A DNA stretch of 63,463 nt. It comes from Nitrososphaerota archaeon (lineage in GTDB: Archaea > Thermoproteota > Nitrososphaeria > Nitrososphaerales > Nitrosopumilaceae). A program made the translations under genes and the position numbers. This document shows positions 1,674-24,334 of this stretch, piece after piece. Location of the stretch: NCBI GenBank assembly GCA_022574415.1, contig JACZSC010000001.1:1-63463 (forward strand), read 5' to 3'. The stretch's first letter is position 1. Each line of letters begins with the position of its first letter. The notes beneath the pieces are model-generated. The model worked only from the letters and a program-made list of their open reading frames with translations. It did no database searches and was not told the origin of the DNA.

Positions 1674-2840
1674 TTATGTCAGCTCGGATTTATTTAATCT
1701 CTCCGAAAATAATTCATCCATCGAATTAATGACATTATTGCTGTCTAGACTTTCTATTACAGATATTCTGTATTTAGCTGCTAATGATTTTGCTTTTATT
1801 GACATTGATGAGCAAATTATGATTGAAAAGTTGGGTTCAAAATCTAATATTGGTATAATTTTAGAATTAACCTTTGACTCATCAATTTCTTTGTTTAATT
1901 TTATAAGAAAAATGAATATTGTATTATTCTTATTATCACTTGCAATCAAATCAATATTGTGGTAATGACCACTTTTTCCTTTAATTGAAGAATTTTCTTC
2001 CAAATAAAATTCATATTTAGATAATATGTTTTTTATATTATCAATTAATGAGGAACCAAAATTTGTTTCAGCGTCAAGATCTTTTAATCGAAAACATGGT
2101 ACAGATATAGTGCGAGCCATGTTTGTATCAAAATCATGATTAAATTGTCTACAATGTAGCTTTATTGCAACATCATCAAACTTTTTTTCACAATTATTGC
2201 AATTATACCACATGGCAGGAATTCTTAATTCTTTTTTGCTATCTTCGATGTTTTTATTACAAGATGGACACTGAACAATAATTTCATTTTCAGAAACAAC
2301 AAAATTCTTTTTTACTGAGATATAGCCACAAATTTTGTGTTCAAAAAGATGAAGTTTTTCAATTTCCATTGAACTACATTTTGGGCAATATAGCCGTACA
2401 TTAACATTATATGAGTTAGGATGTTGAGGGCAAACAACTAATTTTTCATAAACACTTTTTTCAAGTATGCCAATCCCAGATTTGGCTAAATTTTCTAAGA
2501 AGGAAACATTAGAATCACTTTCATCTATTTCTTTTAATATTGGATAAGTGATTTTACCTGTCACTAAATCAAGTTTTGGCGCAACTAATTTTTCTTCACA
2601 ATTTCTTATTTTCTTTATTAAAGATGCAATTTTATCATCAATCATTAGTTTTTGTGAAGAACCACCTAAGGGGATTTCTCTAAAATCATCATTGAGGTTA
2701 TTTGTATATTCATCTTGATTTTTTCTATCTTCTTTAACCCAACCAAAATTTTCATGATTTTGTTCCATAGAATTTTTTAAGGTGTTCCCTCCCTGGTTGG
2801 AATCTTCATTATCAAATTTAGCTTTATTTCTTCCGAACAC
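1674..2840 (-). CDS. TackOD1-like zinc-binding protein, first gene of the pilin operon
   Basis: This is a 388-residue soluble protein. The first 90 residues are polar and low in complexity. The middle (about residues 135-240) has cysteine/histidine pairs CPQH, CPKC, HKICGY, CPSC and CNNC, the arrangement I associate with TackOD1, a thaumarchaeal metal-binding output domain. The C-terminal 110 residues (IFIFLIKLNK, FSIIICSSMS) resemble a small alpha/beta fold. It leads the minus-strand operon and ends directly against the first pilin gene, so a regulatory or assembly role in filament production is plausible. The TackOD1 assignment rests on the cysteine pattern only. Confidence 0.55.
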   Translation of the reverse strand: MFGRNKAKFDNEDSNQGGNTLKNSMEQNHENFGWVKEDRKNQDEYTNNLNDDFREIPLGGSSQKLMIDDKIASLIKKIRNCEEKLVAPKLDLVTGKITYPILKEIDESDSNVSFLENLAKSGIGILEKSVYEKLVVCPQHPNSYNVNVRLYCPKCSSMEIEKLHLFEHKICGYISVKKNFVVSENEIIVQCPSCNKNIEDSKKELRIPAMWYNCNNCEKKFDDVAIKLHCRQFNHDFDTNMARTISVPCFRLKDLDAETNFGSSLIDNIKNILSKYEFYLEENSSIKGKSGHYHNIDLIASDNKNNTIFIFLIKLNKEIDESKVNSKIIPILDFEPNFSIIICSSMSIKAKSLAAKYRISVIESLDSNNVINSMDELFSERLNKSELT

Positions 2841-2926
2841 CAGTTTTCTCTCCAGTTAGTTGTTTACATCAAACAGAAACGCATTCTCATAGGCTAGTTT
2901 TCCAAATTGCTAAATCTAAGACATGT

Positions 2927-2962
2927 GTTGTTCAAATGCGCGAACAACTGTTTAAGACAGTT
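2927..2962. promoter_or_regulatory. Two overlapping inverted repeats in the divergent pilus promoter region
   Basis: GTTGTTC pairs with GAACAAC across eight bases, and AACTGT pairs with ACAGTT across TTAAG. The two repeats share bases. They sit between the divergent zinc-protein/pilin operon and the ATPase operon. The second repeat covers the position where a TATA box for a leaderless ATPase transcript would be expected, about 28 bases before its ATG. They look like operator half-sites, but no cognate regulator is known. Confidence 0.4.
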
Positions 2963-2981
2963 TTTAGGTTTGAAATGCTAA

Positions 2982-4625
2982 ATGAGGTTCAATTTCTTTA
3001 AATATAAACAAAATCCGATGAGAGAGGAACTATCAAAATCTATTTTATCTAATACAAATACTAATTCCTCTGAATCAGTATTTCATCTTTTTCCAAAAAA
3101 TGAGTTAATCGAATCAGTTCCTTTAGAATTTGAAGAATTAACTCCTAAATTTATCACTGTAAATAAGTTAGATTTCAATGGAACTGAAATTCATAGCGGG
3201 ATAATTAAAGATCCTACATCTGTTGGCGGATTACGTTATTTAGTAATTCAACCAAGGCTAAGTGTTAGAGATAAAAAAAATTTTGCTGTAATAAAAAAAC
3301 TGTTAATGATGGAACTAAGTGTTGCATTAAGTGATACGAGATCAAAAAAAGATGCAGAAATGATACTTCGTAAAAAAATAACTCAGTTGATTAAAAAATA
3401 CCAGCTTGAGATTCCAACAAAAAATCTTTCCAAGATTACTTACTATGCAATTCGGGATTTTGTCTATCTTGGTAAAATTGAACCATTAATGCGAGACCAC
3501 ATGATAGAAGAGATTAGCTGTGATGGGAAAGGAATCCCACTTTACATTTGGCATAGGGAATATGAATCGATTCCAACTAATATTATGTTTACAACGGATA
3601 AAGAGCTAAATAATTTTGCAAGAAAAATCTCTTATTTGTGTGGGAAACATGTTTCCATAGCCAATCCTATTATTGATGCTTCATTACCAGATGGAAGCAG
3701 GATCAACCTTACTTTAGGTCGTGAAATAACAAAACGAGGAAGTACGTTTACAATCAGAAGATTTAGAGCAGATCCTATTACCATAGTTGACCTCTTAAAA
3801 TTTGGTACAATGTCTTCCGACGTTGCTGCATATCTATGGTATATTGTTGAAAAAAATGCAACTATGCTTGTTGCAGGCGGGACAGCAAGTGGAAAAACAA
3901 CTGCTCTTAATGCATTAGCTGTATTCATTCGACCAAGTCAAAAAATAGTTAGTATAGAAGATACACAAGAGCTAAACCTTCCACACGAAAATTGGATTCC
4001 AGCAGTTTCTAGACAAAATTTCACTGATGGTAGAATTGGGGAGATTACTCAGTTTGATTTACTTAGAGCTGCATTACGTCAAAGACCAGATGTTATTATT
4101 GTAGGTGAAACACGAGGTAGAGAAGCTCATACTTTATTCCAAGCAATGGCTACTGGACACGGAGGGTTTTCATCAATACATGCAGATTCTGTTAAAGCGA
4201 CACTTACAAGATTAGCATCATCACCAATGGATGTCCCAAAAACATTGATTGCAAATACTTTAGATATCATTATTTTACAATTAAAATTAAGAGTAAAAGA
4301 GAGAACAGTAAGAAAAGTTATTCAGGTTTCTGAAATAGATGGACTTGATGACTCAACAGAAGAAATAAAAACACATGAAATTTTCAAATGGGATCCAATT
4401 ACTGATACTTATAACTTTGACAAAAATAGTATTGTATTAAACAAAATAAAAAATCGTCTAGGGGAAAGCACTTCTCAGATAAATGATGAACTGAGAAAAA
4501 GAAAAGTCACTTTAGAATGGTTGGTTAAAAATGACATCAGACAACAGAAAGATGTAGCAACAAATATTATGGAATTTTATTCTGATCCTGACCGATTTTA
4601 TGAAAAGAAAAGGTTAGTGATTTAA
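2982..4625 (+). CDS. Type II/IV secretion system ATPase (GspE/VirB11/FlaI type)
   Basis: This is a 547-residue cytoplasmic ATPase that powers assembly of a type IV filament. A poorly conserved N-terminal domain is followed by the hexameric ATPase core. Walker A is GGTASGKTT near residues 299-307, the Asp box is near SIEDTQEL, Walker B is VIIVGETRGREA near residue 370, and a histidine box (SSIHADS) follows. Length and motifs match archaeal GspE2/FlaI-like enzymes. It is the first of three tightly spaced genes (one base to the next), encoding the ATPase and two T2SSF membrane proteins. The separate pilin genes and the A24 peptidase nearby complete a pilus-like system. No archaellum accessory genes are seen, so it is called a pilus rather than an archaellum. 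Confidence 0.93.
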   Translation: MRFNFFKYKQNPMREELSKSILSNTNTNSSESVFHLFPKNELIESVPLEFEELTPKFITVNKLDFNGTEIHSGIIKDPTSVGGLRYLVIQPRLSVRDKKNFAVIKKLLMMELSVALSDTRSKKDAEMILRKKITQLIKKYQLEIPTKNLSKITYYAIRDFVYLGKIEPLMRDHMIEEISCDGKGIPLYIWHREYESIPTNIMFTTDKELNNFARKISYLCGKHVSIANPIIDASLPDGSRINLTLGREITKRGSTFTIRRFRADPITIVDLLKFGTMSSDVAAYLWYIVEKNATMLVAGGTASGKTTALNALAVFIRPSQKIVSIEDTQELNLPHENWIPAVSRQNFTDGRIGEITQFDLLRAALRQRPDVIIVGETRGREAHTLFQAMATGHGGFSSIHADSVKATLTRLASSPMDVPKTLIANTLDIIILQLKLRVKERTVRKVIQVSEIDGLDDSTEEIKTHEIFKWDPITDTYNFDKNSIVLNKIKNRLGESTSQINDELRKRKVTLEWLVKNDIRQQKDVATNIMEFYSDPDRFYEKKRLVI

Positions 4626-7213: not shown

Positions 7214-7446
7214 AACATAAAATGATTTTTTTCGTGTTTAATGATAAAGTTGTGTGAACAGCACAAACAAGCATTAATATCAATTTAAGTAAAACATGTT
7301 TTGCTGAGTCTAAAAAAAGTACTCAGAAATGAAAAATCTGGTTCTTTTATCACTCTTACAATTCTTCTACCTATACCCAATAGGCTCATCATACATTAGA
7401 GTTGAGTATAAAAAAACTGTACATGAATCTATTTGTCAGGATAATA

Positions 7447-7480
7447 TTTGATACGAACTGCATAATCCTGAAAATTCTTA
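7447..7480 (+). repeat. Full dispersed repeat (left and right halves)
   Basis: The left half TTTGATACGAACTG is followed six bases later by the right half CCTGAAAATTCTTAA. This is the same bipartite unit found repeatedly in the island at 17.8-23.0 kb and once at 40.0 kb. Here it lies alone, just beyond the 3' end of the minus-strand ahcY, oriented so that any transcript from it would run antisense to ahcY. No plus-strand gene follows. Confidence 0.7.
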
Positions 7481-7481
7481 A

Positions 7482-7493
7482 GTTTAGCTAAAC
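7482..7493. other. Perfect 12-base palindrome GTTTAGCTAAAC beside the repeat
   Basis: It directly abuts the right half of the dispersed repeat. The repeat's AATTCTTA and a TAAGAATT about 20 bases downstream form an outer inverted repeat around it. The whole block could fold into a hairpin or act as a binding site at the 3' end of ahcY. The remaining roughly 230 bases of this intergenic region (7214-7446) show no gene. Confidence 0.4.
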
Positions 7494-17392: not shown

Positions 17393-17447
17393 CGCATTCC
17401 GTAAACATAACATGTCTTTTATTCGATAGAATCCATTTACTAGAGAT

Positions 17448-17777
17448 ATGCAAAGATCAAAACTAGCCTTCGATACTACTGAACAATCCTATTCAGAGTT
17501 CAGACAAGCTTGTAAATCAAAGGCCACTCTGAAATCATATACAGAGTGTGTAAACCGATTCATGAGGCACTGTGGATATACATCATATGATGAACTGGTA
17601 AAAACAAATCCAACTAAGATCAGAGTAGACTTTTCAAACTTTTTCAGCTACATGAGAGACCGGTTTGATTTAGGAGAAATTAGATCAGCGTATTTCAGGC
17701 CTCATATCAGCGGTTTAGAATTATTCCTAGTTCAGAATGACGTAGAACACACAAAGCCTAAGAATCGAAAATCCTGA
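17448..17777 (+). pseudogene. Truncated tyrosine recombinase, N-terminal SAM-like domain only
   Basis: The 109 residues match the core-binding (SAM-like) N-terminal domain of phage/XerC-type integrases: an early helix with TLKSYTECVNRFMRHCGY and a second helical pair ending near IRSAYFRPHISGLELFLV. The catalytic domain with the R-H-R-Y residues is absent. The last codon and the TGA stop lie inside a copy of the dispersed repeat (ATCCTGAAAATTC), so the repeat marks the truncation point. It is the first gene of the accessory island and probably a relic of the element that built it. It could be expressed but cannot recombine by itself. Confidence 0.6.
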
Positions 17778-17795
17778 AAATTCTTAATTCTTAGT
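17771..17795 (+). repeat. Dispersed repeat, right half; putative leaderless promoter
   Basis: This is the right half, CCTGAAAATTCTTAATTC plus TTAG. GAAAAT fits an archaeal BRE and TTCTTAAT an AT-rich TATA position. The centre of ATTCTTAATT lies 27.5 bases before the next ATG, the distance expected for a leaderless transcript. It also supplies the stop codon of the truncated recombinase. Confidence 0.65.
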
Positions 17796-17811
17796 TTAAC
17801 CTAGAGAATTC

Positions 17812-17952
17812 ATGACCACAGCAGAAAAAGGTGTTAAAAAAGTAAAAAGGCGTTCTACTGTTAGTGAAACTCGTATTAAGAAATTGGTAAATAGAATCGA
17901 GAATCTAGAAAAACAAGTTAAGAAAATAAATTCTAAATTGAAAAAGAATTAG
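17812..17952 (+). CDS. Lysine-rich coiled-coil micro-protein (46 aa)
   Basis: The reading frame encodes 46 residues starting MTTAEKGVKKVKRR. The C-terminal half is an amphipathic heptad-like helix (RIKKLVNRIENLEKQVKKI), a likely dimerising coiled coil, and about a third of residues are lysine or arginine. It could bind nucleic acid. The ATG sits 27.5 bases after the repeat's AT core, supporting a real leaderless gene. No family is recognised. Confidence 0.55.
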   Translation: MTTAEKGVKKVKRRSTVSETRIKKLVNRIENLEKQVKKINSKLKKN

Positions 17953-17966
17953 TTTTTCCTATTTTT

Positions 17967-18030
17967 TCACCTTAATTGTTCCAGTTTGAATTCAATCTCA
18001 TCAATCTGACGTTGATGTCTCTCGATGTAG
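17967..18030 (-). pseudogene. Possible remnant of a coiled-coil ORF without a start
   Basis: The minus strand reads YPYIERHQRQIDEIEFKLEQLR and then a stop, a protein-like amphipathic helix. Upstream in the same frame a TGA follows within a few codons and no ATG, GTG or TTG is available. It may be the decayed tail of a gene. It may also be chance coding similarity within an island intergenic region that otherwise contains only inverted repeats. Confidence 0.2.
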
Positions 18031-18110
18031 GGGTAAATGTTTCAATCTGTTTCTGTTATGCGTAAAAACAAGTTTACTGATCAAAAAACAAGTTAGTGAT
18101 TTAATCTTTC

Positions 18111-18140
18111 AAATCTAATGATGATTAGATTTAATTTTTT
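18111..18140 (+). terminator. Hairpin with T-run, terminator-like
   Basis: AAATCTAAT and ATTAGATTT form a perfect 9-base stem with a GATG loop, followed by AATTTTTT. This is the shape of an intrinsic terminator. Archaea mostly need only T-rich tracts, so the hairpin may instead be an operator for the gene that begins 45 bases later. Confidence 0.35.
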
Positions 18141-18184
18141 GATCAAAGTATAAAATTGAAATAGTATAGCAGGAATCTTTGAAT

Positions 18185-18367
18185 ATGAAAGCGAAATTTT
18201 TTACAGGCGATTCCATTGAGTTGGATAAATCTGTGAACACTTTTTTGGATGAAGTAGGAAATATTCGCATCAAGAAGGTACAAATGGTTTCAACAAACGA
18301 AAAGAGTGCTTTGGATGAGGCTGAGTTTGGTGTGATGATTTTTTACGTAAAGAAAGAAGAAGACTAA
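18185..18367 (+). CDS. Small Cse60-like protein
   Basis: This 60-residue protein begins MKAKFFTGDSIELDKSVNTF and ends VMIFYVKKEED. Size, the opening KxKFFTGDS and the closing hydrophobic strand recall the Cse60/DUF2758 family of small proteins named after a Bacillus sporulation-regulon member. A TTG two codons earlier is possible, but the ATG is preferred. A dispersed repeat begins directly after the stop codon. The function is unknown. Confidence 0.55.
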   Translation: MKAKFFTGDSIELDKSVNTFLDEVGNIRIKKVQMVSTNEKSALDEAEFGVMIFYVKKEED

Positions 18368-18368
18368 A

Positions 18369-18394
18369 CTGAAAAAATTCTTAATTCTTAGTTT
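18369..18394 (+). repeat. Dispersed repeat, right half; putative leaderless promoter
   Basis: The copy has one extra A in the A-run (CTGAAAAAATTCTTAATTC). It touches the stop codon of the Cse60-like gene, and its AT core lies 27.5 bases before the ATG of the HNH-like gene, exactly the spacing seen at 17.8 kb and 40.0 kb. Confidence 0.65.
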
Positions 18395-18408
18395 AGGCTA
18401 GAAAACAC

Positions 18409-18642
18409 ATGGGCAATAGGAAAGATTTCAGTCAAACTGAGCTTTTGAAGTATCTTGGTCAATTTACTGTTAATAGGGCTAGATGTGAAAAATGTGGAAT
18501 AACTGCACTTGATGCAAAATTAAACTTACATCACAGAGACGGAAATTCTGAAAATGACAGTTACAAAAACATTGCAATCTATTGTGATAAACATCATAAT
18601 ATTATTGAAGGACGAGATAAGACAATAAATCAATTAAGATAA
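18409..18642 (+). CDS. Small HNH-nuclease-like zinc protein
   Basis: This 77-residue protein has the HNH layout CEKCG ... LNLHHRDGNSEN ... NIAIYCDKHHNII. There are two CxxC/CxxH metal pairs and a central HH-R-D-G-N signature. HNH proteins of this size occur in viruses and mobile elements as nucleases or nuclease remnants. Catalytic histidines are retained, so activity is possible. It is part of the repeat-punctuated array, with a repeat directly after its stop. Confidence 0.75.
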   Translation: MGNRKDFSQTELLKYLGQFTVNRARCEKCGITALDAKLNLHHRDGNSENDSYKNIAIYCDKHHNIIEGRDKTINQLR

Positions 18643-18666
18643 CCTGAAAATTCTTAATTCTTAGTT
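18642..18666 (+). repeat. Dispersed repeat, right half; putative promoter
   Basis: CCTGAAAATTCTTAATTC plus TTAGTTT directly follows the TAA of the HNH-like gene. The AT core is 23.5 bases before the first and 29.5 bases before the second in-frame ATG of the next gene, which is compatible with a very short leader. Confidence 0.6.
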
Positions 18667-18677
18667 TGGAGTGAAAG

Positions 18678-18929
18678 ATGGGTATGATTATCAGAAAACA
18701 TCAACACAAGAGGATCAAATGTGAAGTTTGTAAAAATGTAAAGAATGCAACATTAATTCACGCAAAAAAGAGCTGGCGTAAAGTATGGGATGGTCAAATG
18801 GTTTCAGAAGTAGACACGTTTATCCTACAATACAGAATAGGAAAACACCAGCACGGATCTAGACTTTGCAAGGGCTCAGATAAAGTACAATCCAGAGAAC
18901 ATGATGGGATGATTAACTCTAGTTTTTAA
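18678..18929 (+). CDS. Small CxxC protein of unknown function
   Basis: This 83-residue basic protein has one CEVC pair near residue 15 and a later cysteine (RLCKG), with several histidines (KHQHKR, KHQHGS) that could complete a zinc site. GGAG precedes the first ATG. A second ATG two codons later is also possible. It is flanked on both sides by copies of the dispersed repeat. No family is recognised. It may be a virus- or plasmid-derived DNA-binding protein. Confidence 0.5.
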   Translation: MGMIIRKHQHKRIKCEVCKNVKNATLIHAKKSWRKVWDGQMVSEVDTFILQYRIGKHQHGSRLCKGSDKVQSREHDGMINSSF

Positions 18930-18937
18930 CAGTCGTA

Positions 18938-18956
18938 ATCCTGAAAATTCTTAATT
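18938..18956 (+). repeat. Dispersed repeat, right half; putative promoter of a small RNA or micro-ORF
   Basis: ATCCTGAAAATTCTTAATT lies ten bases after the previous stop. A start site about 28 bases downstream (near 18979) would produce a transcript containing the strong hairpin and 22-codon frame described next. Confidence 0.55.
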
Positions 18957-19009
18957 TCTATCTTGAATAGTTGTGATTACATAACCTTTTTTTGTAAGAA
19001 GAATCAAAA

Positions 19010-19078
19010 ATGTACAATTGGTTTGCACGCCAACAACCTAAAGATATGTCTCAAGACATATCTTTAGAAAGTTGTTAA
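19010..19078 (+). CDS. Possible 22-residue micro-ORF
   Basis: ATG to TAA encodes 22 residues beginning MYNWFARQQPKDMSQD. The stop codon abuts another repeat copy, as the stops of neighbouring genes do, which argues for a real unit. The same bases form a near-perfect hairpin, so the region may instead be a structured RNA. There is no ribosome-binding site, and no homologue is known to me. Confidence 0.3.
   Translation: MYNWFARQQPKDMSQDISLESC
19032..19076 (+). ncRNA. Strong hairpin, candidate small RNA
   Basis: AACAAC, then CTAAAGATATGT, a six-base loop CTCAAG, then ACATATCTTTAG, AAA and GTTGTT. The inner stem is 12 perfect base pairs and the outer stem six, separated by a three-base bulge. 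It is bounded by two copies of the dispersed repeat, one of which could serve as promoter. It overlaps the 22-codon frame. Confidence 0.4.
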
Positions 19079-19094
19079 TCCTGAAAATTCTTAG
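19077..19094 (+). repeat. Dispersed repeat, short right half
   Basis: AATCCTGAAAATTCTTAG. This copy lacks the second TTAATTC block. No gene starts 28 bases downstream. The 267 bases from here to the next gene hold no tRNA, clear ORF or strong fold that I can see. Confidence 0.55.
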
Positions 19095-19361
19095 ACCCAG
19101 TGTATCATGTTAAGAGATTGTTGAAATCCAAGTGAGGTAGGTACAAAGGAATCATGCAAACAACACTATTCAATCCTCACTCAGACACTCTATAATACAC
19201 TTCAATTCTTTTAAGCCTTAGCCACACTTGATGAAGAATTATGTTCTGAGCCTGTCTTAAAAACATACGGGCGAACCTCGTTATTTATTTGAATTATTTG
19301 GTATTTAGTTAATTGAGTAAAGCAAAGTTAAGAATTTAACACAGAATTATTATCTGAAATC

Positions 19362-19718
19362 ATGCCATCTATGGTATCTCTACTTTTTGTAGGTGCTCTT
19401 GGCGTTTTTTTATTTTTGTTTATCTTTACCCCATTCGAAACAGAAGATTTAGATCTAATTATGGTGAATGTGAGTGGTGGAGTTGAAACTGTAGGTTTTT
19501 CAACTGACCCTTTCAAACTTGAATTTACTAAAAAATCCTCAGACCAACCCATTACGATATTATTGGATGATAATTACCAATATTCAGTTTCATTGTTCAC
19601 TGGAACATATGATGTTAAAGTATTTTACACCACGATTGGAGACATAACTACTTTGGATTGTGATGCAGGAACGCATGATATTGACTTTGATATTGATAAC
19701 CTTAATTTCAAATGTTAG
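19362..19718 (+). CDS. Small membrane-anchored protein of unknown function
   Basis: This 118-residue protein has one N-terminal transmembrane helix (about residues 5-24, rich in phenylalanine and leucine) and an exported domain of about 90 residues that looks like a beta-sandwich (VSGGVETVGF, ITILLDDNYQYSVSLFTGTYDVKVFYT). Two cysteines near the C-terminus may be disulphide-linked. The fold recalls carboxypeptidase-regulatory or Ig-like surface domains. A dispersed repeat follows eight bases after the stop. Confidence 0.6.
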   Translation: MPSMVSLLFVGALGVFLFLFIFTPFETEDLDLIMVNVSGGVETVGFSTDPFKLEFTKKSSDQPITILLDDNYQYSVSLFTGTYDVKVFYTTIGDITTLDCDAGTHDIDFDIDNLNFKC

Positions 19719-19723
19719 AAAGT

Positions 19724-19743
19724 AATCCTGAAAATTCTTAATT
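19724..19743 (+). repeat. Dispersed repeat, right half
   Basis: AATCCTGAAAATTCTTAATT between the membrane-anchored protein and the response regulator. The AT core is about 67 bases before the GTG start of the regulator. If it is a promoter, this transcript would have a leader of about 40 bases. Confidence 0.6.
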
Positions 19744-19805
19744 TGACTGTAAAGGAATAGTTTTGACTAATATGTTAAAACAAGAATGCTAAGGGTTTTT
19801 CATAC

Positions 19806-20231
19806 GTGTATAGAAATATTCCTAAAATGTTGTCAAGCGTCGCTGACATGGATGTTTTGATTATTGAAGACGCTAAACCTCTAGCATTTCTACTTACTAA
19901 GTATTTAAAAAAACTTGGTTATCGGAAAATTCACTGTTGCGAGAATGGCACTTTAGGAATACGGAAATTTCAAGAACTGGTTGAATCAAATATTGTGCCT
20001 ATTGTCTTCTTGGACTATTATTTACCAGATCTTGATGCACCGGTGGTCTTAAAGCGAATTCTTAAGATTCATCCTGGTACAGAGGTGATAGTAGAAACGG
20101 TAGCAAATCAAAATGAAAGTGGCATTAAGGGGTTATTCGAACTTGGGGCACATGAGTATTTTCCAAAACCGTACGAACCTGAGAAGCTAGAAGAGATAAT
20201 GAACACTATTCAAGCCAGACGCAGACCCTGA
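19806..20231 (+). CDS. Stand-alone response-regulator receiver protein (CheY-like)
   Basis: This 141-residue single receiver domain has an acidic pair in VLIIEDAKP, phospho-acceptor aspartate in VFLDYYLPD, a switch threonine in VETVANQ and conserved lysine in YFPKPYEP. There is no output domain, so it probably signals through protein contacts. The GTG start is uncertain. In-frame ATGs at codons 8 and 15 would still give a complete domain. No kinase lies nearby. The histidine kinase at the right end of the window is the closest candidate partner. Confidence 0.85.
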   Translation: MYRNIPKMLSSVADMDVLIIEDAKPLAFLLTKYLKKLGYRKIHCCENGTLGIRKFQELVESNIVPIVFLDYYLPDLDAPVVLKRILKIHPGTEVIVETVANQNESGIKGLFELGAHEYFPKPYEPEKLEEIMNTIQARRRP

Positions 20232-20250
20232 GCTCATCACAACAAATTGA

Positions 20251-20280
20251 CATTTGATACGAACTGTAAACCTGAAATTA
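20251..20280 (+). repeat. Dispersed repeat, intact left half and degraded right half
   Basis: CATTTGATACGAACTG is intact, but the right half has decayed to CCTGAAATTA. It lies between the response regulator and the 3' end of a convergent minus-strand gene. Confidence 0.55.
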
Positions 20281-20282
20281 GA

Positions 20283-20774
20283 TTAATTGCCTTTACAAGT
20301 TTCATGTGCCCATCTCTCAATAGAGTAATCAGTACTTTCTAGTTCAGATTCATTAATTATTTTACAATCCTTTATTCTAAGAGATTCACCAACAGACCTG
20401 AATTTGCTTATATTAGTTGGGTCTTTTGAAAATAATAGTAACAATCTACAATTTCCCTTTAGAATCCTATTTTTCCATTTTAAATAATTTGGTTCTTGGC
20501 GCATATGTGATCTATAAAGACCAAAATTGATTTTTTCATAGGATGCTTTCGGATTTTCATAAATAACGATTGCGTAATCATCGAGATTATATTCAATAAA
20601 ACGTACTCTTGTAAAATTTGGATTCCAATTTCTAATTTTTGAAAGAACGTGATTTGCTTTTTCTAGATTATCGAAATAAGGACATACCAATAAGTTTCCA
20701 TTTTTTTCTGTATATGCAATACCAATAAAATCAGGATACCAAAATTGTGCAAATTTTTCAGTCATATTTTTCAC
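20283..20774 (-). CDS. Hypothetical protein in the island
   Basis: This is a 163-residue soluble protein of mixed alpha/beta pattern, rich in aromatic residues (FAQFWYPDFIGIAYT, WKNRILKGNCRLLLLF). No catalytic motif, signal peptide or membrane segment is visible. The start may be the ATG three codons later. Its 3' end abuts a degraded repeat copy. I do not recognise a family. Confidence 0.55.
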   Translation of the reverse strand: MKNMTEKFAQFWYPDFIGIAYTEKNGNLLVCPYFDNLEKANHVLSKIRNWNPNFTRVRFIEYNLDDYAIVIYENPKASYEKINFGLYRSHMRQEPNYLKWKNRILKGNCRLLLLFSKDPTNISKFRSVGESLRIKDCKIINESELESTDYSIERWAHETCKGN

Positions 20775-20901
20775 ATGAATACAAAATTATTAAAGATAAT
20801 CACAATTTTTCATGTTCTTTCATATTCAAGATCTGCTCTTGTAATTTTTTTAATTTCCTCTGTCTTTACTGGGAATGAATCATAACCTCTTCTCTCTTTT
20901 T

Positions 20902-20926
20902 TAATCCTGAAAATTCTTAATTCTTA
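20902..20926 (+). repeat. Dispersed repeat, right half, overlapping a minus-strand stop codon
   Basis: AATCCTGAAAATTCTTAATTC continues into the TTA that is the stop codon of the minus-strand gene. No plus-strand gene follows, so a promoter role here would give only an antisense transcript. Confidence 0.6.
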
Positions 20927-21220
20927 ACCACACTTGAAAATAGCTTCTTTAATTTCTCTCATTCTTCTTAAAATTACCCGGTTAGCTTCATCAAGTTCAT
21001 CCTCACTGGACTGGCGTTGGTGTCTTGCAACAAAATATTCGATAAAACGACCATAAATTATACCTGTTGCAAACCCTAAAACAAAATCATCTGCTTCCTT
21101 ATACTGTCCATGTTTTTGGTAATCTTCAACCCTGGCCATCGTTACAAGATTTGGCACTTCTCCGACTGTCCTATCAATTGTTTTTTCTAAATATGCTCTA
21201 TCTTCATTATCGAGTGGCAC
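20924..21220 (-). CDS. Small helical protein of unknown function
   Basis: This 98-residue acidic protein, predicted helical, includes the glycine-rich central segment FVLGFATGIIYGRFIEYF, perhaps membrane-associated or a core helix. Charged helices flank it. Its stop codon lies inside a repeat copy. No family is recognised. Confidence 0.55.
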   Translation of the reverse strand: MPLDNEDRAYLEKTIDRTVGEVPNLVTMARVEDYQKHGQYKEADDFVLGFATGIIYGRFIEYFVARHQRQSSEDELDEANRVILRRMREIKEAIFKCG

Positions 21221-21343
21221 ACAAAAAACATGTTTTAGAATTATTTAAAGTGCGAAAAATACTTTTTTTATTTCATTTCATACGAACTATCGATGAATAT
21301 GGCTAAATTATTAAATCAACTTCGGTTAAATTAATTCTAGAAA

Positions 21344-22528
21344 TTGATAGAAATTGTTTTGTCCGTGTTATCGTTTCTAGTATTATCTGCATACGCAGAG
21401 GAACCTCCAGATTATTTTAATCCATACGCACCGATTTTTACCGACAAAGAAGTATACTCATGGACGGACAAGGTGCACATAACAATTGTAGCACCAAGCT
21501 GGAATGCCAACAAATATGGCATTGATTCTATTGGTACTCAGGATGGTCATTTCATCAAGATTTCCACTGCTGGTCATTCTCTTGAACCATACAAATTAAC
21601 AGAGACCGAACCGAACAGCGGTGTATTTGTTGGCGAAATAATTCTTACTGGTTTTTTACATGATGTTGATGATGATGGAAATCCAGATACTAATCCACGT
21701 ACAGTTGGAAGTGGCCCAACTAATGGTTTCTTGGAGGTTGAGCGAGATGGAGGATTGACAATATCATTTGAATTTGCAGATGGTGTTGTCCTAATTCACT
21801 CTGCAACGATAAGTTGGAATATCGGACAAATAATTTTCGACAAACCAATCTTTTTAGTTGGAGAGACAGCTAAAATTCGAGTAATCGATCCTGATATGAA
21901 TCTCAATCCAGAGACAGTAGACCGAATTGAAGTAGAAGTTTCATCTGATTCCGATGTAGCAGGAATCCTTGTTGATGCAATAGAGACGGAGGATGACTCG
22001 GGATTGTTTGAAGCTATGGTTTCTTTTACACAGAATAGTGTCTCAAGTGGCAATCGGTTATTCGCTATTCCAGGTGATTCAATTTACGCAAAATACGAAG
22101 ACAATACACTTCCTTCCCCCTATAGCATACAAGATGACTTGGATATTCAAATCGAGTCCAAACTTGAATCGGAAGTTCCACCTATTCAAAGAATTTCTGT
22201 TGAAGATGTTTTCCTTGCTGATAGTTTTGGCATTCCAATAGAACCAACAATTAACGAACAGATTCAAATTGTGGGCATGATTACTAACAATCAAAATTAT
22301 GATCAAATCTTTGTATACATTATACAGGTACGAGATCAAGACGGAACGGTGGTTTACTTATCTTGGATTCAAGGAGAACTGACATCAAATCAGAGTCTAG
22401 AGCTGTCTCAATCATGGACTCCAACAGGAGCTAGCAACTATGTCATTGAAACTTTCGTTTGGGATTCACTAAAGGATCAAATTCCTCTTTCACCAAATTC
22501 ATCCCTGTCTTTATTCAATAATGATTAA
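21344..22528 (+). CDS. Secreted beta-sandwich surface protein
   Basis: This is a 394-residue exported protein with TTG start and a signal peptide of about 18 residues ending SAYAEE. It is composed of repeated beta-sandwich modules. The segments TETEPNSGVFVGEI and ETEDDSGLFEAMV are two copies of the same E-T-x-x-S-G-x-F motif, common in thaumarchaeal S-layer-associated proteins, with acidic calcium-binding-like loops (DVDDDGNPDT). The final 110 residues resemble a CARDB-like domain (NEQIQIVGMITNNQNYDQIF). A tandem pair of dispersed repeats follows the stop directly. Confidence 0.72.
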   Translation: MIEIVLSVLSFLVLSAYAEEPPDYFNPYAPIFTDKEVYSWTDKVHITIVAPSWNANKYGIDSIGTQDGHFIKISTAGHSLEPYKLTETEPNSGVFVGEIILTGFLHDVDDDGNPDTNPRTVGSGPTNGFLEVERDGGLTISFEFADGVVLIHSATISWNIGQIIFDKPIFLVGETAKIRVIDPDMNLNPETVDRIEVEVSSDSDVAGILVDAIETEDDSGLFEAMVSFTQNSVSSGNRLFAIPGDSIYAKYEDNTLPSPYSIQDDLDIQIESKLESEVPPIQRISVEDVFLADSFGIPIEPTINEQIQIVGMITNNQNYDQIFVYIIQVRDQDGTVVYLSWIQGELTSNQSLELSQSWTPTGASNYVIETFVWDSLKDQIPLSPNSSLSLFNND

Positions 22529-22564
22529 CATTTGATACGAACTGTTTAATCCTGAAAATTCTTA
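22528..22564 (+). repeat. Dispersed repeat, full copy, first of a tandem pair
   Basis: Left half ACATTTGATACGAACTG and right half CCTGAAAATTCTTAG in the standard arrangement. It starts at the stop codon of the surface protein. Four bases later a second left half begins, so the unit of about 41 bases is tandemly duplicated. Confidence 0.72.
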
Positions 22565-22565
22565 G

Positions 22566-22596
22566 TTAACATTTGATACGAACTGTAAACTCGAAA
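22566..22596 (+). repeat. Dispersed repeat, second tandem copy with degraded right half
   Basis: TTAACATTTGATACGAACTG is identical to the preceding copy, then the right half decays to CTCGAAAAAG. The identical left halves show that the duplication unit begins at TTAACATTTG. Confidence 0.68.
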
Positions 22597-22654
22597 AAGT
22601 AGCTAATAATAGCTGACTAGTATTACATATTGTCTAGCACAATTCATTCTAAAC

Positions 22655-22759
22655 ATGGCACAAACAAAAACACAACGACGTGCTGCTGGCCTAAAAGGTG
22701 CTCGTACAAGAAAAAGAAATGCAGCCACAAAAAAAGGTTCTAAAAGAAAGAGACGTTAG
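22655..22759 (+). CDS. Very basic micro-protein (34 aa)
   Basis: The frame encodes 34 residues of which about 16 are lysine or arginine (MAQTKTQRRAAGLKG, KKGSKRKRR). It has the composition of a small nucleic-acid-binding or ribosome-associated peptide. It stands between the tandem repeats and a zinc micro-protein on the same strand. Its short length leaves room for doubt. Confidence 0.5.
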   Translation: MAQTKTQRRAAGLKGARTRKRNAATKKGSKRKRR

Positions 22760-22793
22760 AATCAATTTTTCCTTTTTTAAAAATTGAGTAATT

Positions 22794-22904
22794 ATGAACT
22801 TTAAATGTAAAAACTGTAGAAAGGAATTTGAGTTATTCAATAGTGAATTTTGTTGCATGGAATGCCTCAATGATTATTATCTTAAAGGGCACGCAAAATA
22901 CTAG
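22794..22904 (+). CDS. Zinc-finger micro-protein (36 aa)
   Basis: The frame encodes 36 residues with CKNC and, 12 residues later, CCMEC, giving a four-cysteine treble-clef-like site (MNFKCKNCRKEFELF). It resembles small zinc ribbons of archaeal viruses and plasmids. It lies 34 bases after the basic micro-protein, so they may be cotranscribed. Confidence 0.55.
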   Translation: MNFKCKNCRKEFELFNSEFCCMECLNDYYLKGHAKY

Positions 22905-22999
22905 GTAATCAATTAGGAATCCAGTATGTTTGTTTCAATATCTAATTCAAACGCTCTTTGAAATCCTATACAGGAACCACATCTGAATGGATTCGATTA

Positions 23000-23032
23000 C
23001 ATTTGATACGAACCGTTATTCCTGAAAATTCT
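23000..23032 (+). repeat. Dispersed repeat, full copy with small changes
   Basis: CATTTGATACGAACCG then CCTGAAAATTCTAAA. It lies 12 bases beyond the 3' end of the minus-strand zinc-ribbon gene, again touching a gene end but antisense to it. Confidence 0.65.
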
Positions 23033-23043
23033 AAAACACTAAA

Positions 23044-23208
23044 TCATTTCTTGTATTTTATAACTCTGGGTTTATTCCAATAAGGAGAACGACATTTAGT
23101 ATTAGCACAAGTCTTAGGCCATTGTTTCTTACTAGTCCACTTATTCTTACATCTGTTACACGTGTGTAACCATAACTCTGTGCCAGGAACCTTAGAACTC
23201 ACGCTCAT
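23044..23208 (-). CDS. Zinc-ribbon micro-protein (54 aa)
   Basis: The minus strand encodes 54 residues with HTCNRCKNKWTSK and TCANTKCRSPYW, i.e. C17-x2-C20 and C34-x4-C39, followed by the basic SPYWNKPR. This single zinc ribbon with the R-S-P-Y-W-N ending is typical of small archaeal DNA-binding proteins. It is transcribed divergently from a micro-ORF operon, and the palindrome-rich spacer between them suggests shared control, possibly by this protein. Confidence 0.72.
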   Translation of the reverse strand: MSVSSKVPGTELWLHTCNRCKNKWTSKKQWPKTCANTKCRSPYWNKPRVIKYKK

Positions 23209-23272
23209 TATATACACTAATTGTATATATTAATTATGAATATACGTAATACGTATATACATGATATGTATA
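23209..23272. promoter_or_regulatory. Cluster of three palindromes in a divergent promoter
   Basis: TATATAC/GTATATA (7-base loop), TATACGT/ACGTATA (AAT loop) and TATACAT/ATGTATA (GAT loop) follow one another, the last two overlapping. All share the form TATAYRT-N3-AYRTATA. They separate the divergent zinc-ribbon gene and the micro-ORF operon and contain TATA-like sequences for both directions. This is what a dimeric repressor's operators would look like. Confidence 0.6.
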
Positions 23273-23281
23273 TAGATAAGC

Positions 23282-23467
23282 ATGGAAAAACAAGTACTAG
23301 AAATCATAAAGGAAAAAGACACCTACAAAATATCTGTAGAAATATCAGAGAACTCCAAACAAGAGCCTAGTATTACAATCAAAGTACACACAGACGGATC
23401 AACCAAAGACGCAGTGGATGAGGCTCTAGAACAATACAGACGAGCTAAGGAAGAGCTTAAGAAATGA
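23282..23467 (+). CDS. Small helical/beta protein, first gene of a micro-ORF operon
   Basis: This 61-residue protein (MEKQVLEIIKEKDTYKISVE start) has two beta strands followed by a charged helix (AVDEALEQYRRAKEELKK). It could be an antitoxin-like or DNA-binding helper, but no motif decides. The ATG lies ten bases after the palindrome cluster. Its stop overlaps the next ATG (ATGA), starting a chain of four such overlaps. Confidence 0.65.
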   Translation: MEKQVLEIIKEKDTYKISVEISENSKQEPSITIKVHTDGSTKDAVDEALEQYRRAKEELKK

Positions 23468-23562
23468 GACTCTTGTTATCAGAATCCTGTGAGGCCGTAA
23501 GGTGTCAAGAATGCACGTATTCTAACTGCATATGCTACTGTCACAGAGACTGTGAAGAATGA
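23464..23562 (+). CDS. Cysteine-rich micro-protein (32 aa)
   Basis: Thirty-two residues with six cysteines: RCQECTYSNCICYCHRDC. Together with the histidine they could form one or two zinc sites. It overlaps both neighbours by four bases (ATGA), which argues for translation coupled to the operon. Nothing similar comes to mind. Confidence 0.5.
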   Translation: MRLLLSESCEAVRCQECTYSNCICYCHRDCEE

Positions 23563-23708
23563 ATCTAACATTCAGGTGCTCAATCTGTGGCAAGGATCTA
23601 CTGCCTTACGAGGTAAAAAAACACGAGCAATATGAAATCGAGCAAAGTATTTTCAAGCATCTCAATTGTAAGAAGAAACACAGCCACACCAAAAGATGTC
23701 TACAATGA
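23559..23708 (+). CDS. Zinc-finger-like micro-protein (49 aa)
   Basis: Forty-nine residues with CSICGKDLLPYEVKKHEQ and HLNCKKKHSH, giving CxxC followed by several H/C candidates as in a C2H2-like finger. It overlaps the preceding and following frames by four bases each. It probably binds zinc, and the role is unknown. Confidence 0.5.
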   Translation: MNLTFRCSICGKDLLPYEVKKHEQYEIEQSIFKHLNCKKKHSHTKRCLQ

Positions 23709-23782
23709 ATCAACAAGAACTCATCACCATCATTCTAAAGCAATTTAAAAAAATAGAAGAATTAGAAAAAAAACTAAAATGA
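23705..23782 (+). CDS. Coiled-coil micro-protein (25 aa), last of the overlapping chain
   Basis: Twenty-five residues, a single amphipathic helix (LKQFKKIEELEKKLK) resembling the C-terminal coiled coil of the 46-residue protein at the other end of the island. It overlaps the preceding stop by four bases. Too short to be sure, but the ATGA overlap supports it. Confidence 0.35.
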   Translation: MNQQELITIILKQFKKIEELEKKLK

Positions 23783-23836
23783 GCTATCGATTGATCTACA
23801 TAAAATTTTTAACACTTTGCTGGATTGTGAATTAGA

Positions 23837-24139
23837 ATGAATTACATAATTGATGAGTGTGTCAGCATAAAAACTAAAGAGCAGTTTAGAGTCAAGAACG
23901 TTAATGGTTTTGTTCACTCCATCAACGTTCTAGGTAAGGGAGCAACAGATGAAGAGGTTTTCGAGTTAGTTAAGAGGAATAAAGCAGGTTTAATCACACT
24001 TGATAAGAGATTTGCACTAAGTGTTCTTCAATCGGGTTATACGGTAATTCTACCAGGTCATGAGAATATACGAATTAAGCCAATTATTGACAAATCTCCA
24101 AAGTACTCTGATCCACTAACGTACTATTTGTTAGAGTGA
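23837..24139 (+). CDS. PIN-like (DUF5615-type) putative nuclease
   Basis: This 100-residue protein has the acidic first motif IIDECVS, GATDEEVFELVKRNKAGLITLDKRFAL in the centre and a final strand VILPGHENIRI. The order D-E, then D-E-E, then the T-x-D-x-D/R strand fits the Mut7-C/DUF5615 PIN-like RNase family, often toxins of toxin-antitoxin pairs. No classic antitoxin gene is adjacent. The micro-ORF operon 55 bases upstream is the only candidate partner. It marks the right end of the island. Confidence 0.7.
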   Translation: MNYIIDECVSIKTKEQFRVKNVNGFVHSINVLGKGATDEEVFELVKRNKAGLITLDKRFALSVLQSGYTVILPGHENIRIKPIIDKSPKYSDPLTYYLLE

Positions 24140-24334
24140 TAAGGTCATAATTCCATGATTTTTCCTTTAATTTGATAACGTAACTATGTGGTCTATTGAA
24201 TTAAAAATTTTATATGCTAATTTTGTATCGTGTATTTCCAAAACTGCTTAAATTAGCTTAACCTACACCCAAATCACCCTAAGATTTTTTGTAAAATCAT
24301 AATAAGGCAATGTTTTGTTATTAACAAGTTTATC

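Follow-up and report, generated by a model that had tools for sequence, protein, structure and literature searches.

A run of small genes at positions 17,448 to 22,596 of a 63,463-nt contig from a Nitrososphaerota archaeon (GenBank JACZSC010000001.1; the whole contig stretch is referred to here as the window) is probably part of a genome-wide, chromosomal gene-cassette system that operates by site-specific recombination at two families of short repeats, R1 and R2, and that is distinct from integrons. A cassette in such a system would usually be one small gene bounded by short direct-repeat sites of either family, and comparison between genomes shows that these units have been gained, lost, duplicated, and re-ordered. 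The window forms contig C135 of G000, a draft genome of 1.34 Mb whose relatives within the genus are G001 (NPMR_NP_theta_2), G002 (NPMR_NP_theta_1), and G003 (B51T1B5), the named ones being recorded as Nitrosopumilales or Thaumarchaeota. These four marine-sediment Nitrosopumilales of the NP-theta group, together with G011 from another genus, are the array-bearing genomes. All genomes are draft metagenome-assembled genomes (MAGs), with completeness of 85–97% (93% for G011), and the analysis covers their site-bearing contigs, a part of all contigs.

The exact R1 14-mer CCTGAAAATTCTTA is present in 45 copies in the genome versus 0 for a reversed control, and the repeat is therefore not due to chance. 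R1 has the layout TTAATCCT-GAAAATTCTTA-ATTCTTAG, with GAAAATTCTTA as its core, and in a profile of 201 sites the information spans −8 to +18 around the core with an invariant AATT. When 100 relatives were scanned for a longer form of the motif (19-mer, at most 1 mismatch), the four members of the genus contained 44, 16, 41, and 17 copies and each of the remaining genomes 0 to 2; the repeat was also found in B12T1B11 and at one site in Nitrosopumilus sp. OFTM383. R2, a second family that went undescribed in an earlier model-generated reading of this DNA (the sequence-only reading), is a 28-bp site of the form AATTAACATTT-GATACG-AACTGTTAATT (full sequence AATTAACATTTGATACGAACTGTTAATT) that frequently sits immediately ahead of R1. 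It has a dif-like 11-6-11 geometry, with arms complementary at 10 of 11 positions around a 6-bp center, a level reached by 0.05% of shuffles. There are 58–133 copies of R2 in each of the four genus genomes and none in most related genera, which rules it out as the single chromosomal dif of the family, and 39 copies in G011, a genome without the long R1 motif. In IMG/VR, consulted for a possible viral vector, the R1 18-mer is absent and the exact R2 18-mer occurs in 2 contigs only. Both families are arranged as direct repeats: neighboring sites at most 3 kb apart share a strand in a ratio of 117:8 for R1 (204 sites from five genomes, one of which contributes the single OFTM383 site) and 108:9 for R2, which shows no alternating inverse orientation. 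Other blocks recur beside these sites in the intergenic DNA of G000–G003 (for example, GTTGGCTTCCGYCT before R2, GAGTCTTTTTATCTCTGAAATAGC after R2, and AGTTAAATCGGATCTTAAT before R1) and may be further junction families.

The case for recombination at these sites is carried by their flanks. Among R1 site pairs with a homologous 100-nt flank, homology was confined to the left in 62 and to the right in 88, and extended to both sides in just 3; the corresponding numbers for R2 were 49, 52, and 4. With 70-nt flanks, both sides matched in 1% of matching site pairs (2/172) at the site itself versus 52–64% when the viewpoint was shifted by 120 nt, and this rise places the break at the site. A BLAST comparison that made no use of the motifs gave the same location, with 307 of 634 homology-block ends (48%) falling within 25 nt of an R1 or R2 site, compared with 8.7% for random positions. 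Linkage mapping of arm polymorphisms against the flanks narrowed the exchange further. In R1, sequence identity tracks the left flank as far as −3 and, from about +12 onward, the right flank (0 being the core G); in R2 the corresponding limits are −1 and +16 (0 being the A of ACATTTG). This comparison places the R1 crossover inside the core GAAAATTCTTA and the R2 crossover inside the center of R2.

Individual units behave in the same manner. In 27 pairs of single units, the units are homologous and the DNA outside them is unrelated, apart from one side of one pair. The array's HNH-like unit (18373–18646) occurs in four places in total, the others being single cassettes with different outer neighbors in G000:C53, G002:C138, and G003:C9, and it is 92% identical to the G003 copy where core DNA of that genome is 70–81% identical. 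The segment at 18179..18367 likewise recurs with other neighbors, at 96% identity in G000:C53 and 94% in G002:C27. Presence or absence of one unit can be seen at site G001:C7:123, which joins the left flank of B12T1B11 NODE7013:2818 to the right flank of :3143; the 325-bp B12T1B11 unit that parts these flanks runs exactly from core to core, and the left-flank match is a near-identical 45-nt sequence, a flank that automatic alignment misplaces. Exchange also appears to reach across genera, as G011:C2 and G000:C6/G001:C227 share an aminotransferase region of 1.4 kb at 96% identity, versus about 68–75% for other syntenic DNA of these genera. This region lies between two R2 sites in G000 and has R2 at its 3′ end only in G011, and it looks like a chromosomal gene captured into a cassette, a direction that we infer. 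The gain, loss, and reordering of single gene-plus-repeat units with breakpoints inside the repeat, as the sequence-only reading had supposed, is thus seen both within the genome and between species, and the opposite pattern of fixed gene order, unchanged repeat positions, and no turnover is not what the genomes show.

Of 230 units, 140 carry one confident gene and 60 carry none. Sites of both families peak 0–40 nt past stop codons, and in 30 of 143 independent flanks an ATG lies exactly 36 nt past the R1 core G, versus about 3 at other offsets, with these codons belonging to different genes. An ATG also occurs exactly 3 nt past the R2 core (AACTGTTAATG) in 19 of 145 independent R2 right flanks, as candidate starts. 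The strand of the sites is uniform and that of the genes is not, with about 40% of genes pointing the opposite way. When 79 cassette proteins were compared with Pfam, the matches included receivers, methyltransferases, cupredoxins, TFIIB, a universal stress protein, an aldo-keto reductase, an aminotransferase, Fic, and one Cas1. The Cas1 gene (PF01867, E = 7.6e-46), near R1/R2 in locus L010 (G000:C72, 15771–16847), is the only one found in its genome and has no counterpart in the sister species; it is possibly a remnant of a clustered regularly interspaced short palindromic repeat (CRISPR) system or of a casposon.

Within the window (Table 1), the proposed layout of single small open reading frames (ORFs) split by repeats, mostly in one orientation, holds in outline: most units contain one ORF, with two in the first (17776–18373), and all sites are on the plus strand, with two genes (20283–20774 and 20924–21220) on the minus strand. 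Of the protein labels given earlier, Pfam supports the receiver and gives no match at E ≤ 0.1 for “Cse60-like” or “HNH-like”, the latter being a reading solely of a visible C..C/HH..N..H pattern. The “truncated tyrosine recombinase” is a 109-aa ORF with a sub-threshold match to an N-terminal SAM-like domain (PF13495, E = 0.0069); it is 24% identical to the N-terminal end of an integrase (414 aa) from a sister species, and no catalytic domain was found in the region.

Table 1. Sites, genes, and larger features of the array and its island (window positions unless another contig is given).
Feature	Position	Strand	Remarks
Whole island carrying the array	17393..24193		Sister species G001 (contig C99) lacks it as one block; imperfect direct repeat TTTATTGAGTTAA / TCTATTGAATTAA on either side
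R1 cores	17776, 18373, 18646, 18943, 19083, 19730, 20909, 22554	+	The 8 R1 sites of 17448–22596; further R1 at 23024 and 7470
R2 sites (ACATTTGATACGAACTG)	7444, 20250, 22528, 22569, 22999
109-aa ORF, N-terminal SAM-like domain of tyrosine recombinase only	17448..17777	+	Stop codon TGA supplied by first R1
R1 site 1 (AAAATCCTGAAAATTCTTAATTCTTAGTTT)	17768..17797	+
46-aa coiled-coil-like ORF	17812..17952	+	ATG exactly 36 nt past R1 core G
62-aa ORF (“Cse60-like”)	18179..18367	+	No Pfam match
R1 site 2	18365..18394	+	Left arm diverged
77-aa HNH-like ORF	18409..18642	+
R1 site 3	18638..18667	+
83-aa CxxC ORF	18678..18929	+
R1 site 4	18935..18964	+
140-bp unit	18943..19093	+	No convincing ORF; strong hairpin 19031–19074
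R1 site 5	19075..19104	+	Left arm and core only
118-aa ORF	19362..19718	+	N-terminal membrane segment
R1 site 6	19722..19751	+	Left arm and core only
Response-regulator receiver protein	19806..20231	+	PF00072, E = 3.9e-15; related units in G000:C37, C83, C95 and G002:C143
R2 site	20250..20266	+	18 nt past receiver stop codon; followed by degenerate R1
163-aa ORF	20283..20774	-	Strand opposite to sites
R1 site 7	20901..20930	+
98-aa ORF	20924..21220	-	Relative close to a site in G003:C9
394-aa secreted protein	21344..22528	+	Relatives in G001:C172, G003:C30, G011:C1
R2 site	22528..22544	+	Right at stop codon of 394-aa gene
R1 site 8	22546..22575	+	Left arm and core, joined to second R2
R2 site	22569..22585	+
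R2 then R1 site 9 (core GAAAATTCTAA)	22999..23045	+	Beyond 17448–22596
R2+R1 composite	7444..7491	+	Isolated, elsewhere in window
Aminotransferase, L204 (G011:C2)	2399–3751
Aminotransferase, L022 (G000:C6)	486–1871

The 140-bp hairpin unit has copies 99% identical in G000:C98 and G001:C126 and 90% identical in G002:C153, where core DNA of G000 and G001 is only 91–95% identical; it is possibly a small RNA or a recent transfer. The array as a whole belongs to a 6.8-kb island that the sequence-only reading had not described. The island's flanks are contiguous in G001, an imperfect 13-nt direct repeat marks its ends, and in G002 (C67) its place is taken by an unrelated 662-bp stretch, in which a ferritin-like gene was read from the translation. 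Because G001 lacks the island as one block, the island that carries the array has itself been gained or lost in its entirety. The 109-aa recombinase fragment begins 55 nt from the left end, a position that would fit a decayed integrated element, and this N-terminal fragment is all that was found in the island when an intact integrase gene was sought. At the right end, a DUF5615 PIN-like protein (23837–24139; PF18480, E = 4.1e-7) is possibly the toxin of a toxin–antitoxin pair.

We envisage that a site-specific enzyme, most likely of the tyrosine recombinase family, would excise units as circles and re-insert them at any like site, the left arm of a site staying with the left neighbor and the right arm with the right neighbor. 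The right arm of R1, at its fixed 36 nt ahead of start codons, might also form part of the inserted gene's promoter. A tyrosine recombinase is our best guess for the enzyme because of the geometry of the R2 site. The four genus genomes contain 8, 1, 5, and 6 matches to PF00589, and serine resolvases (PF00239) and Y1 transposases (PF01797) were found in none of G000–G003 and G011. Cas1 was ruled out as the enzyme, since it occurs in G000 only among the five array genomes. No support was obtained for the remnant at 17448 as the driver of the array, as no full-length relative was found to adjoin arrays consistently: of 20 recombinase loci scanned together with their flanks, one had R1 within 100 nt and two had a degenerate R2.

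Several observations weigh against the proposed system. No cognate recombinase for R1 or R2 was found in the genomes searched. The PF00589 proteins of the four genus genomes are distantly related, include no tight orthologue that could be a dedicated shared enzyme, and lie mostly away from arrays, and G011, at its level of completeness, has no PF00589 match despite its R2 sites. The dyad symmetry of R1 is not significant (7/11, reached by 51% of shuffles), and the mixed orientation of the genes is a poor fit to a simple promoter-in-site idea for all units. The evidence is a comparison of draft MAGs, in which neither a circular form nor recombination in progress was seen.

Other mechanisms could generate compact, repeated units. 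If these were non-autonomous elements that insert into GAAAATTCTTA or the R2 core by target-specific transposition or retro-homing and duplicate the target, the one-sided R1 sites (left arm only, n = 36; right arm only, n = 36) would resemble element ends beside non-array DNA. We regard this as unlikely: the core is identical everywhere, unlike a duplicated variable target, nearly every unit differs in gene content, each arm, left and right, goes with its own flank as in reciprocal crossover, and neither a Y1 transposase nor, outside one of the five array genomes, a Cas1 is available to do the work. The fixed R1-to-ATG distance and the position of both sites just past stop codons would also be expected if R1 and R2 were promoter- or terminator-like elements and the genes were shuffled by general homologous or illegitimate recombination. 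That explanation is rather improbable, as the sites keep a uniform strand though so many genes face the opposite way, and homology ends sharply at the core on both sides, where general shuffling would scatter breakpoints over the intergenic space. Stretches of 11–30 bp are, moreover, short for homologous recombination.

A true integron with attC sites diverged past recognition would account for units of a single small gene, for direct sites lying just downstream of it, and for patchy gene content, but it is very improbable on the data at hand. The best score to the integron integrase model TIGR02249 in the four genus genomes was 33 versus a cut-off of 265 bits, and scores in 14 control genomes were likewise below cut-off. 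In line with the earlier claim that classical attC sites are absent, the 70 nt to the left or right of R1 and R2 have about the same folding z as control segments (mean about −0.1), the crossover AATTCTTA is without the GTT of attC, GTT from the G/TT crossover of GTTRRRY being found on neither strand of the R1 crossover GAAAATTCTTA, and R2 at 28 bp is shorter than attC. Lastly, all data are draft MAGs and many contigs end in arrays, so that wrong contig parts might have been joined at short repeats. We give such an assembly artefact scarcely any weight. Unrelated R1 sites have a stretch of only about 13 bp in common, which is probably below usual assembly k-mer lengths, the same units and chimeric junctions occur in the separately named MAGs NPMR_NP_theta_1/2, B51T1B5, and B12T1B11, and the window carries ten sites within a 63-kb contig.

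The favored cassette system shares features with several known ones. Like integrons, it has small genes arrayed mostly one by one, direct-repeat sites just 3′ of genes, turnover of units between species, and varied cargo, and single-gene units gained, lost, and re-ordered at sites, the test applied to integrons, are what the R1/R2 arrays show. Unlike integrons, it uses two site families of about 28–30 bp, carries genes in both orientations, and has sites spread over many contigs rather than in one array beside intI; the integrons described in archaea depend on IntI and attC (Ghaly et al. 2022, PMC9668308). In the plasmid dif (pdif) modules of Acinetobacter, genes lie between inversely oriented sites and the host XerC/XerD are used (PMC13141974). 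R2 resembles these sites in its 11-6-11 geometry and near-perfect arms, and genes bounded by such sites are shuffled in both cases, but R1 and R2 are direct repeats located on chromosomal contigs, and R1 does not have the dif geometry. The window island, with its flanking short repeats and a recombinase fragment beside one end, is similar to cryptic thaumarchaeal integrated elements in the available portion of the survey by Krupovic et al. (2019, PMC6563490), which in that portion describes five classes of element and no arrays of single-gene cassettes that have internal sites in common. Whole-island presence or absence with direct repeats is likewise a property of tyrosine-recombinase integrative elements, from which the island differs in having no intact integrase. 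Tycheposons provide another case of tyrosine-recombinase-linked cargo turnover in a marine microbe, as larger elements with their own integrase, unlike the single-gene units without an integrase seen here.

No account of arrays like these in Thaumarchaeota emerged from our literature searches, and, by text search, a paper on Thaumarchaeota of deep-sea sediments that includes the NP-theta clade (PMC8397731) leaves integrases, transposons, and mobile elements unmentioned. We propose tentatively, at a little below even likelihood, that the arrays represent a separate, archaea-native cassette platform, in which short double-stranded sites of two independent families, one being dif-like, would shuffle single genes genome-wide and between genera, R1 would also provide a promoter position, and the recombinase would be neither IntI nor a recognized Xer. 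Thaumarchaea have been reported to lack XerA (PMC2958812), and with the arrays in view, which recombinase acts on the sites in such archaea becomes a testable question; the system would also offer a new recombination site for laboratory testing. Gene cassettes are among the chief ways in which bacteria exchange genes rapidly, and only rare integrons have been described in archaea. A widespread cassette system with its own sites would explain how the small genomes of abundant sediment ammonia oxidizers acquire regulators, secreted proteins, and metabolic genes singly.

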